Virus record (IMG/VR): IMGVR_UViG_3300030060_000729
Coordinates: 1-33,367 of that record
Length of the DNA stretch: 33,367 bases
Direction: 5' to 3' (one strand)
Source: a virus
Positions 13,245 through 23,100 of this stretch are shown here, piece after piece. The notes under the pieces are model-generated. The model did no database searches. It was given only the letters and a program-made list of their open reading frames with translations, and was not told where the DNA came from. Positions within the stretch are counted from its first letter, which is position 1; each line of letters starts with the position of its first letter. A program made the position numbers and the translations under genes.

Positions 13245-13639
13245 TGATACAAGCATTGATAGGACCAATAGCTAATCTTGCAGGTTCATGGTTTGAAAAC
13301 AAGATTGCTAAAACAAAAGCTGATGGTCAGGCTAAAGTTGCAGAGGCAAAGGCTCGTGCTTCTGTGGCAGAGAAAGTTGCCGCAGGTGAGGTGGCTTGGG
13401 AAGGCAAGATGGCAGATGCTTCCAATGATTCTTGGAAAGATGAATTTGCTTTAGTTGTTCTTCTTGCCCCTGCCATACTGGTCTTCATTCCCAGTATGAG
13501 AGAGTACGTTAAAGAAGGTTTTGCTGTACTTGCTGATCTACCTGACTGGTATCAGTACTTATTGTATATTGCTGTGTCTGCAAGTTTTGGTATAAAAGGT
13601 GTGGGTCAAGCGGCTAAGATGATAAAGGGTAAGAAGTAA
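13244..13639 (+). CDS. Holin, GTA-type 3TM family-like
   Basis: The protein has 131 residues. An Ala/Lys-rich amphipathic N-terminal helix (residues 20-60) is followed by SWKDEFALVVLLAPAILVFIP, a first membrane segment, then ADLPDWYQYLLYIAVSASFGIKG, a second, and a KMIKGKK tail. The WKDE...P...P.WY...G pattern matches the three-membrane-segment holin of gene transfer agents and many alphaproteobacterial phages (GTA_holin_3TM). The endolysin gene begins 115 bases downstream. Expected role: timed permeabilisation of the inner membrane so that the endolysin reaches the wall. Confidence 0.8.
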   Translation: MIQALIGPIANLAGSWFENKIAKTKADGQAKVAEAKARASVAEKVAAGEVAWEGKMADASNDSWKDEFALVVLLAPAILVFIPSMREYVKEGFAVLADLPDWYQYLLYIAVSASFGIKGVGQAAKMIKGKK

Positions 13640-19699: not shown

Positions 19700-20563
19700 T
19701 TAAGCGAACATTGAGTTGGGTCGTTTCATATAGTGTAGCATTTTACTGTTGCGTTCTACAATAGCTTTGTTGTTGCTACTTACATTTTCAGGGTGAGATA
19801 TCCAATGTGTGACTGCATTGTATACACCCCATTTGTTGTTACCAATACTACGTTTGTAATCTCGCCAGTGTTGTTGTAGCTTGGCATATTGTGTTTCGTT
19901 ACGATACTTGCCATCAATCGTTGGTCGTGGTGTCCAAGAAAGTTTTGCAAATAGTTGATCTACTTGTCCTTGTGTCACTTTGGTATTGTACCACTCACGA
20001 TAGCGAGTCTCATTACTACGAAACAAATCGACTGACTGCTTTAGATGCTCAAAGTTGTATCTGAAATGTCCGTTGTGTTTGAGTCTGAAGTTTGCGACTG
20101 TATCAGGTGTAGTACATTTGTTCATACAAAACATACGAAGTCCATCAGCTTGTATCATGATAGACCAGACACCATTGTATGAGTTACGAACTGATATCTG
20201 AAATGCAACGTAGTCTTGCATTGCAGGATCATCAAAGCATATCTCTTTGAATACAAGTCTAGTGTCCATCATTGCACCATCATCAATCATGTTGATCTGT
20301 GTGACATATGGTGTTTTTAAACTGTCAGCTATGTCAATGATAGGTTCAAGTACTTGTGCATGAGTCACTGGTCTGTATGATAATGAATGACTGCCCATAT
20401 ACTGATGATTATCTGCACGGACTATCATTTGTTTATCAGGACATTTGATGATGTTACTTACACCATCAATGTCACACATACCTGCCATTGGTATTTGTTT
20501 GATAGGAAAAGCATAGTCACCTTTTCTATCTACAAGTTTTGCTAGTTGGGTCATATGATTCAT
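19700..20563 (-). CDS. DUF932-like protein
   Basis: The protein has 287 residues from ATG 20563 with AAGGAGGTAACT upstream. Features that fit DUF932 (the phage/plasmid-like TIGR03299 type) are the early YRPVTHAQVLEPIIDIAD segment, IQADGLRMFCMNKCTT, a Phe/His-rich helix and the late NKWGVYNAVTHWISH motif. Members occur widely on phages and plasmids; a defined biochemical activity is not known to me. It lies within the early block with replication and recombination genes, so a DNA-metabolism role is likely but unproven. Confidence 0.72.
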   Translation of the reverse strand: MNHMTQLAKLVDRKGDYAFPIKQIPMAGMCDIDGVSNIIKCPDKQMIVRADNHQYMGSHSLSYRPVTHAQVLEPIIDIADSLKTPYVTQINMIDDGAMMDTRLVFKEICFDDPAMQDYVAFQISVRNSYNGVWSIMIQADGLRMFCMNKCTTPDTVANFRLKHNGHFRYNFEHLKQSVDLFRSNETRYREWYNTKVTQGQVDQLFAKLSWTPRPTIDGKYRNETQYAKLQQHWRDYKRSIGNNKWGVYNAVTHWISHPENVSSNNKAIVERNSKMLHYMKRPNSMFA

Positions 20564-21067: not shown

Positions 21068-21799
21068 TTAAGCCTTGTGTTTGATTGGCTTTGATGCTGA
21101 TTTGATTGCATCTCTTAATATATCCTCAGCTTGTTTGGTTGATATCTTGCAGATATCGTTGTGTAGTACAAGTTGTGGATAGTCTTTGAATGCTTGGTCA
21201 ACCCTTGACTCAAAGTCTTTTTGTTGTTCAAGAGATCTGCCTGATTTTCTTGCTCTGATTTTGAGTAGAGCATCTGATGCAGAAGTTTTGAGCTTTGATC
21301 CTGAGTTCATAGATGAACCAAGTGTTGCAGGGTTGAAGATTTGATCGAGTAATTTCTCGTGAGCATCTGCACCTTCCCAAGCCATGTCGAGTATTGTTTC
21401 GTAAATACCTCTGAATAGGTCTTGTTCGAGTCCTGCGTTCTCGATATTGGCTTCGTTCTGTTGTACGATTGATGGTCCATTTGCATCATCTGCGTACCAG
21501 TCTTTGCCATTTTCGATTTCTTTCTCAATAGTATCACTGCGTTGTAGTGCTTTTTGATATGACTTCTCAGCCTTAGCAACGTAGCCACCTAGTCTTACGA
21601 TAAGTGATACATTCCAGAATGGATTGTCTTGACCAGTATCCGTAACTGGATTAGGTGCAGACGAGTATCTCTTTTTGCGTGACTCAGGCTCAACTTCGTC
21701 AAAGTTGAAGTTGTTGACAAACATTTCAACTTGACTTGTTATGCCTTGGTCTAGTGATACTTGTGTTGGGTTAGTAGTTGGTTGTTTAGTATTTGACAT
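21068..21799 (-). CDS. First leftward gene, 243-residue protein of unknown function
   Basis: The start ATG 21799 follows AAAAGGAGA. The protein is soluble, with a disordered N-terminus, an acidic FNFDEVEPESRKKR stretch, a central helical region rich in Glu/Gln/Asp (AEKSYQKALQRSDTIEKEIE) and a basic Lys-rich end (IKSASKPIKHKA). I do not recognise it. It is closest to the control region, has its own strong terminator and lies under a candidate promoter at 21894-21922. That resembles an early, highly expressed gene, for example a host-takeover or nucleoprotein factor. The function is inference. Confidence 0.75.
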   Translation of the reverse strand: MSNTKQPTTNPTQVSLDQGITSQVEMFVNNFNFDEVEPESRKKRYSSAPNPVTDTGQDNPFWNVSLIVRLGGYVAKAEKSYQKALQRSDTIEKEIENGKDWYADDANGPSIVQQNEANIENAGLEQDLFRGIYETILDMAWEGADAHEKLLDQIFNPATLGSSMNSGSKLKTSASDALLKIRARKSGRSLEQQKDFESRVDQAFKDYPQLVLHNDICKISTKQAEDILRDAIKSASKPIKHKA

Positions 21800-21859
21800 A
21801 TGAATATCTCCTTTTTATGTCGTTGTTGTTTGACCTTGTGGTCGGCTTCAATGAAACAA

Positions 21860-21932
21860 AATCATATCATATGATTGTCGCATTGTTCGTAGGGTCTTAC
21901 GTTTGCTCTCGGACGATGTCAATTTGTTTCCC
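21860..21932. repeat. Left arm of diverged inverted repeat
   Basis: Read on the minus strand this arm aligns with 22101-22172. The best block is 21860-21885 against 22146-22172: identical apart from a two-base gap, and it includes the motif catatgat next to tgtcgcattg. Weaker matches continue through the Tn-ACTCTC/GCTCTC and GGAAACA parts. Confidence 0.7.
21894..21922 (-). promoter_or_regulatory. Candidate promoter for the first early gene
   Basis: On the minus strand a perfect TTGACA (21922-21917) is followed after 17 bases by TAAGAC (21899-21894), a weak -10. It lies in the left inverted arm, about 95 bases before the first leftward gene. The perfect -35 and spacing are the main support. 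Confidence 0.45.
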
Positions 21933-21976
21933 TTTGAAAAAAGTAATACCTTCTTAGAATTACTTTTTTTGAAGGG
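21930..21976. other. 18-bp hairpin in the control region core
   Basis: Bases 21930-21947 pair with 21959-21976 over 18 positions, two of them G-U type, around an 11-base loop. The stem is a CCC/GGG end followed by an A6/T-tract. A second hairpin, AAAAAAAG/CTTTTTTT (21983-21990 with 22000-22007), follows. The pair could block read-through between the divergent blocks or be an origin element. Confidence 0.65.
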
Positions 21977-22038
21977 TCTGGGAAAAAAAGACTACTGTAC
22001 TTTTTTTGTCAAACAACTTTACATTGTCGGCTTACTAG

Positions 22039-22108
22039 GTTTCATTAGGATAGAATGCCTACACAAGTCTTTTGTATAGCCTCGCTTTGCATTCTATTCT
22101 TAGGAAAC
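22039..22108. other. Nested hairpin in the control region core
   Basis: The arms 22039-22058 and 22089-22108 pair at 17 of 20 positions. Inside the loop CTACACAA and TTGTATAG (22059-22079) form a second stem. The right arm overlaps the start of the right inverted repeat arm. Confidence 0.6.
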
Positions 22109-22172
22109 ATTGTAAGTGAGAGTAAACTAAAACCCGTAGGATAATCAATGCGACATATCATATGATATGATT
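22101..22172. repeat. Right arm of diverged inverted repeat
   Basis: The counterpart of 21860-21932 in opposite orientation, 168 bases away. It contains a perfect 16-base palindrome, catatcatatgatatg (22154-22169), a candidate binding site for a dimeric regulator or initiator. Confidence 0.7.
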
Positions 22173-22185
22173 AGCTCCGAATAGC

Positions 22186-22214
22186 ATTTCGTTGGCTCAC
22201 TTTGACAACGAAAT
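22186..22214. other. Perfect 9-bp hairpin
   Basis: ATTTCGTTG (22186-22194) and CAACGAAAT (22206-22214) are perfect inverted repeats around an 11-base loop, just right of the inverted repeat arm. Confidence 0.6.
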
Positions 22215-22524
22215 ACGCAGGTAGAACACTGGTAATATGTACACATCTAATGGTTTGCAACTTTTAGTTAAAGTTGAATCCGCAGGTGTGTCGTCCGTCG
22301 GTGCGTGTTCTGTAGACGAAAGGTAGAATAACGTAACGTAGGTATGACGTTAGTCTTACTGTAGTGTAGTTCTTCTACCCTAAGCTTCCGTCGCAACGGA
22401 CACCCCCAAGGATTGTGAGATATTTGCAACACCGAGCTTCGTGTGGTCTGCGAGGCGACCTGTGTAATTAGACTATATGTGTGCGTCATCATCATCATAT
22501 CCTAACCGAGATGTAGATGGTAAA

Positions 22525-22637
22525 AGCATATTCTGACAAGTATGTCAAAATGGTAGCTTTGGTCTGAATCCCCACCCTTGGGATTCAGCGAAACAAAGCA
22601 CCATGTATTTATTTTGACTTGCTTGACAGAATATGCT
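22525..22637. other. 113-base imperfect palindrome upstream of small terminase
   Basis: Four nested stems share one axis: 22525-22540 with 22622-22637 (15 of 16 pairs), 22544-22551 with 22611-22618 (8 of 8), 22552-22561 with 22594-22602 (9 pairs, one bulged A), and 22564-22572 with 22580-22588 (9 of 9) around a seven-base loop. The only large asymmetry is an eight-base bulge at 22603-22610. It could be a packaging site, a structured leader RNA or a block to read-through. Confidence 0.8.
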
Positions 22638-22671
22638 CCGCGTTTTTGTGAGTCGAATCAAGGACTTACAA

Positions 22672-23100
22672 ATGCCCTTGACAAGCGATTATGTATGGGT
22701 TTACAAAAGGGGGGTAAGGGGGGATCTCTTGTTAACACAGCAAAGAATTACAAAGAAACAGAAACTACTGATTGATACGATAGTAGCAACTGGTTGTAGT
22801 GTCAAAAAAGCTAGTGAAATAGCAGGATACGCAAAAGGTGAATCAGGTAGAGTGACAGCTAGTAAGACTTTGAGACTGCCTCATATCCAAGAGTATATGC
22901 AACAAAGGGTTAGAGAAAGTATAGGATTGAATGCTACGAAAGCCTCGAACAAGATGTTAATGCTAAGTCAAGGTGCTAAGAGTGAGTATGTTCAGCTTGA
23001 AGCCAGTAAGGATATACTAGATAGGGCAGGGTACAAGCCAATAGAGAAGTCCATGAACTTAGTGACTGGTAATATAAACGTAAGTATAGACTTGACATAG
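22672..23100 (+). CDS. terS: Terminase small subunit
   Basis: The protein has 142 residues from ATG 22672, which has AAGGA seven bases upstream. An ATG at 22633 lies in the palindrome arm without a ribosome site, and a TTG at 22729 after an AAGGGGGG run is a real alternative. The body has a phage small-terminase helix-turn-helix: LLIDTIVATGCSVKKASEIAGYAKGESGRVTASKTLR, with Gly-Tyr at the usual place, then an oligomerising helix (IQEYMQQRVRESIGLNATK). It recognises viral DNA and activates the large subunit encoded 1.3 kb downstream. Two G6 runs at 22709-22723 are unusual for this AT-rich genome. Confidence 0.82.
   Translation: MPLTSDYVWVYKRGVRGDLLLTQQRITKKQKLLIDTIVATGCSVKKASEIAGYAKGESGRVTASKTLRLPHIQEYMQQRVRESIGLNATKASNKMLMLSQGAKSEYVQLEASKDILDRAGYKPIEKSMNLVTGNINVSIDLT

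Follow-up and report, generated by a model that had tools for sequence, protein, structure and literature searches.

The nested palindrome upstream of the small terminase gene (terS) in this phage genome is real, but it is just the last of three domains in a structured element of about 790 bases. We assign a probability of roughly 0.6 to the reading that it constitutes the 3′-terminal domain of a noncoding RNA that is large (~790 nt), structured, and modular and is encoded by the + strand of the gap between the divergent early and late genes. The element is most likely a large and previously undescribed noncoding RNA that belongs to marine relatives of the SAR11 (Pelagibacter) phages, and less likely a DNA packaging site. 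A search of the literature library on pelagiphage hairpins or noncoding RNAs returned nothing relevant.

The divergent gap and the start of terS

The window (the whole stretch of DNA analyzed) is 33,367 bases long and corresponds to a virus record. Among its relatives is Pelagibacter phage EXVC031P Hodr, with 65% identity in TerL and 58% in TerS. Leftward genes, including RecE-like, Erf-like, and ParB-like ones, extend up to position 21799, while terS, terL, and the portal gene run rightward; ~830 noncoding bases separate the leftward genes from terS. The left border of the gap is formed by the first leftward early gene in the list of open reading frames (21068–21799, − strand, 243 aa), which had no Pfam or PHROG match. 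Another early gene, at 19700–20563 (− strand), encodes a DUF932 domain (Pfam E = 7e-17).

The palindrome had been described as ending inside the first possible ATG of terS. This ATG, at 22633, is not the likely start: it belongs to an over-long reading frame, and the TTG at 22729 is the likelier start, yielding a protein of 123 residues (22729–23100, + strand; Pfam Terminase_2, E = 4e-7; PHROG terminase small subunit). In many relatives, TerS homology begins near this TTG, at various residues past ATG 22633. The ribosome-binding site, AAGGGGGG (22716–22723, + strand), is conserved in close relatives, all of which share the arrangement AAGGGGGG-N5-TTG/GTG/ATG. A promoter-like motif, TTGACA-N17-TTACAA (22678–22706, + strand), lies between the palindrome and terS. 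It is missed by a consensus promoter scan, which requires a better second hexamer; CTTGACA is nonetheless kept in nearly all terS relatives, whatever their upstream sequence. Because the likely start is TTG 22729 and TTGACA intervenes between hairpin and gene, we regard the overlap of the hairpin with the ATG as incidental.

Three domains and a conserved core

The whole element, a putative large noncoding RNA (21855–22640, + strand), fills the divergent gap from the leftward early genes to the rightward terS. The + strand of 21850–22640 (791 nt) folds at −288.5 kcal/mol, compared with −194.5 kcal/mol (sd 6.5) for shuffled sequences (z = −14.4); the corresponding values for the − strand are −255.2 kcal/mol and z = −13.0. 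The asymmetry between the strands was considered as proof of RNA and discarded, because the shuffles attribute part of it to base composition. The left boundary was placed at 21855 because the BLAST alignments of four relatives (L004, L006, L039, and L064) to the window start exactly there, where the fold also begins, and the sequences farther left are unrelated. Two of these relatives (L004 and L039) carry an insertion of ~260 nt at this left edge (window 21844/21855) that includes an additional small, leftward reading frame. The full stretch could be aligned in 11 sequences (alignment A1), and double substitutions keep base pairing in all three domains, which we term H1, H2, and H3. A protein-coding role for the gap was considered and rejected: short − strand reading frames overlap it, but their translations differ and their frames shift between relatives. 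Scans found no intrinsic terminator (a GC-rich stem with a T run on its 3′ side), and the 5′ edge of the element showed no clear + strand promoter; both negatives count against an RNA.

H1 (21855–22172, + strand) is a branched domain with inverted arms. Its closing helix joins 21860–21885 to 22146–22172, and side hairpins are located at 21930–21976, 21979–22011, and 22030–22117 (+ strand). Among relatives, six pairs of the closing helix and five pairs of a second helix (21912–21928/22012–22028) exhibit double changes; L095 carries a diverged H1. H2 (22237–22486, + strand), delineated from the fold and alignment A1, holds the conserved core described below.

H3 is the 113-nt nested hairpin itself (22525–22637, + strand), the 3′ domain of the larger element as defined by folding, self-comparison, and covariation. 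The architecture given for it by the sequence-only reading was borne out, with ~41 pairs in total. The 16-bp outer stem (22525–22540 with 22622–22637) has a single A·A mismatch, both inner stems are perfect (GTCAAAAT/ATTTTGAC, 8 bp; CTGAATCCC/GGGATTCAG, 9 bp), and GGTAGCTTTG pairs further with CAAAGCACC. The segment 22505–22660 folds at −59.1 kcal/mol on the + strand (z = −7.4) and at −54.7 kcal/mol on the − strand (z = −6.3); none of 200 shuffles was as low in either case. Self-comparison of the 33-kb window (E ≤ 1e-4) uncovered only two inverted repeats, 22525–22637 (E = 4e-9) and 22031–22116, both of which sit in the divergent gap upstream of terS.

Is the pairing in H3 maintained among relatives? 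In alignment A3 (10 relatives), 91% of the cells are paired, compared with 34–46% when the alignment is slid. Compensatory change across relatives, which the sequence-only reading had put forward as a check on the palindrome, is present: pairing is kept through 21 double-change cells, versus 8.4 in shuffles. In H3 of the L003 type, the inner stems are rebuilt from other letters. A T run 3′ of H3 is short and lacks conservation in A3.

A covariance model of H2 gave weak matches in other families at the same genomic place. We delimited a conserved core helix of 66 nt, GGUAGAAUAAC[GNA]AY[GUA]..hairpin..[GUA]RU[GUA]GUUCUUCUACC (22318–22383, + strand; alignment A5 and model R2). Alignment A5 comprises the window family plus L086, L095, L035, L036, L041, and L043; R2 was built with the other-family loci first matched weakly by the H2 model; an earlier model (R1) had also given faint matches on the minus strand, which echo the palindrome of the core and were excluded from R2. 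Across families (A5), 88% of the core is paired, as opposed to 33–60% when slid, with 25 double-change cells versus 9.6 in shuffles; within the window family, the figures are 96% paired and 13 double changes versus 3.7. The unpaired positions are also conserved in sequence (AACG.A..G ... GTAGTT), and core pair 24–43 is G·U in 10 of 15 sequences. R2 matches two loci outside its training set, L115 (E = 4e-13) and L117 (E = 1e-11), and finds further loci besides. Degenerate patterns match 18 + 7 viral contigs (~25), and none of the 84,980 prokaryote genomes in GTDB. The core model had no match in Hodr, Lederberg, HTVC034P, HTVC010P, or MEP301. At every locus with a visible terS, the core lies on the terS strand, 201–359 nt upstream, and it is retained across TerS proteins of 66–100% identity.

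The sequences around the core are exchanged between phages. L086 has the core with unrelated flanking hairpins, and L043 has the core together with another family's 3′ domain (GCAAGAGGGGAAGAGGUUGGGC...GGGGAACUCUUGC) where the window has H3. This alternative 3′ domain combines an invariant AGAGGGGAAGAGGUUGGGC...GGGGA with variable, covarying stems; it was observed upstream of terS in L014, L016, L019, L020, L021, L040, L043, L067, and L111. In L043/L049, L086/L179, L095, and L117/L183/L185/L186, the core lies inside a framework, GAAGCAAC...GGACUGGA, which in L042 encloses a replacement hairpin instead. H3 is thus a terminal domain for which several others can stand in. With a small conserved core as the constant, this swapping of domains provides a natural experiment as to which of the parts are important.

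RNA, DNA element, or leader

If the element is an RNA, it would be transcribed rightward during infection and act as RNA. Its core may bind a protein or another RNA, or may drive self-assembly as in GOLLD and ROOL, while the outer hairpins, H3 included, could serve as stabilizing or spacing arms in which length and shape outweigh sequence. The sequence-only reading had offered a pac-type signal, a cruciform, and a packaging or leader RNA as possibilities. The RNA part of that proposal is supported by stems with double changes, by a core that is always on the terS strand, by the conserved unpaired positions and the G·U pair of the core, and by an excess of G-U over A-C mismatches across families. 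On the terS strand of 27 representative inverted repeats, 268 mismatches are G-U and 134 are A-C; G-U exceeds A-C in 20 loci and the reverse is true in 3. Among the bases of all other mismatches, C is scarce (14%). Since several of the 27 repeats come from a single upstream cluster, the set is not fully independent, and the G-U excess is weak when judged against the composition of the other mismatches (p = 0.02 when only isolated mismatches are counted, 0.21 when all are). Taken over the representatives, the asymmetry favors RNA on the terS strand, short of proof.

The window family alone has almost equal numbers of the two mismatches (G-U 42, A-C 38). This lack of an RNA preference is compatible with a DNA cruciform, and an element acting as DNA, either a cruciform or single-stranded hairpins that serve to start replication or as a structure-specific, pac-like initiation point for packaging, is the foremost of the rival explanations, albeit an unlikely one. 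Its location beside terS, between divergent operons, would suit it, as would the strong hairpin of some kind found at this place in most relatives. Packaging (cos or pac) sites often lie within or beside terS, and the element likewise adjoins that gene. They would be expected to keep step with their terminase, however, and here phages whose TerS proteins are almost identical share neither sequence nor structure at this place. In L013, TerS is 98% identical over residues 26–155, yet the upstream region is wholly different; L017, L023, and L025 have TerS identities of 94–95% and unrelated upstream sequences. Over such phages, TerS identity spans 92–98%. Because the upstream sequences of these four relatives are unrelated, a site recognized by TerS through its sequence is unlikely here, and this part of the earlier proposal is not supported. 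These phages come close to having no conservation upstream of a conserved terS, one of the circumstances that the sequence-only reading had named as refuting it; nearer relatives do, however, keep a compensated hairpin. The fixed orientation of the core relative to terS at all loci, along with the G-U excess on one strand and the scarcity of C in the loops, both seen across families, also argues against an element that acts as DNA.

Somewhat less probable still is a cis-acting 5′ leader, in which transcripts begun upstream would traverse the element and continue through terS and the late genes, their fold controlling terS translation or read-through. The core does lie on the same strand as terS and at a near-fixed distance from it. 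The apical loop of H3 (window 22564–22588) reads CACCCUU, with CCCUU or CUCUU in relatives, and is complementary to AAGGGGGG (22716–22723), the ribosome-binding site of terS; even where the stem has been replaced, the loop keeps both its richness in C and U and this complementarity. In the leader version, this loop could pair with AAGGGGGG. Yet the terminal hairpins of other families lack such a loop, the size of the element is far above that of usual leaders, and the conserved, promoter-like TTGACA between H3 and the ribosome-binding site weakens the case for a terS leader. As terS has its own downstream promoter-like motif, the candidate RNA is probably a transcript separate from the terS mRNA. 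Least probable of all, in our judgment, is a functionless mutational by-product: recurrent inverted duplications at the gap, kept palindromic by hairpin-templated repair. Hairpin-templated (quasipalindrome) mutation can generate paired changes even when no RNA is under selection, and it could mimic the covariation of long hairpins. Paired changes do outnumber wobble intermediates, and in some relatives repeats of up to ~1.4 kb extend their left arm over the leftward gene, both of which accord with such an origin. This process leaves the conserved unpaired loops of the core and of the alternative 3′ domain unexplained, and it comports poorly with a core that is retained across divergent TerS proteins, fixed in orientation, and asymmetric between strands.

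Known structured RNAs and giant repeats in relatives

Very large structured phage RNAs are few (GOLLD and ROOL), and their role is unsettled. GOLLD is a very large, ornate structured phage RNA with a conserved and a more variable region, many examples exceeding 800 nt; it is often found near tRNA islands, its function is unknown, and it assembles into an RNA-only nanocage (PMC12286853). ROOL is a large structured RNA of phages and prophages, without a known protein partner and often near tRNAs (PMC12286853). The present element, a candidate large structured phage RNA, resembles both, and GOLLD also in its ornateness and in combining a conserved region with a more variable one. It differs in that neither family's covariance model matched in the window, the region, or 11 relatives, for GOLLD even at a loose threshold. 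The sequence and genomic place of ROOL also differ from those of the element, whose neighbor is terS; ARAGORN finds no tRNA genes in the window. The phi29-type pRNA is shorter than 200 nt and serves phages that have a phi29-type ATPase and no TerS. It, too, is a structured phage RNA with packaging genes nearby, but the element described here spans ~790 nt, is accompanied by an ordinary TerS and TerL, and matches no Rfam pRNA family. No credible Rfam match came from covariance scans at gathering-free thresholds, whether of the window and the region (E cutoffs as loose as 1 and 10) or of 11 relatives. A mir-2755 match at 13396–13489 (+ strand; 24.9 bits, gathering threshold 76) was regarded as chance. 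The element is a member of neither GOLLD nor ROOL and is most aptly treated as a large structured phage RNA candidate, so far unclassified. If this is correct, marine phages have a further such family, unrelated to those two and with a defined location upstream of the terminase genes.

A broader proposal is more tentative: the element may belong to a previously unrecognized class of phage RNAs, giant and modular, with a small conserved core amid exchangeable hairpin domains, that elsewhere takes the form of hairpins of 400–1400 nt with a left arm antisense to the first early gene, possibly self-assembling like GOLLD or ROOL and tied to the early/late switch or to packaging. Inverted repeats of 300–1381 nt (~1.4 kb) were observed upstream of terS in many relatives, among them L114, L076, L082, L078, L080, L135, and L083 (Hodr). 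The giant repeats of these seven span ~770–1400 nt, adjoin terS, are 64–71% self-complementary, and have arms that covary within families; in several relatives, the left arm overlaps the leftward gene on the opposite strand. The core and framework motif was looked for in several giant-repeat families, and neither was found; the giant repeats may therefore be a different element. In HTVC010P (L178), the divergent gap that precedes the terminase contains an inverted repeat of ~390 nt, which spans the junction of the record (34563 to 31); this repeat may be due to chance and, being very AT-rich, was left out of the counts. The cultured relative Pelagibacter phage Hodr carries its giant hairpin at the place that corresponds to the element in the window.
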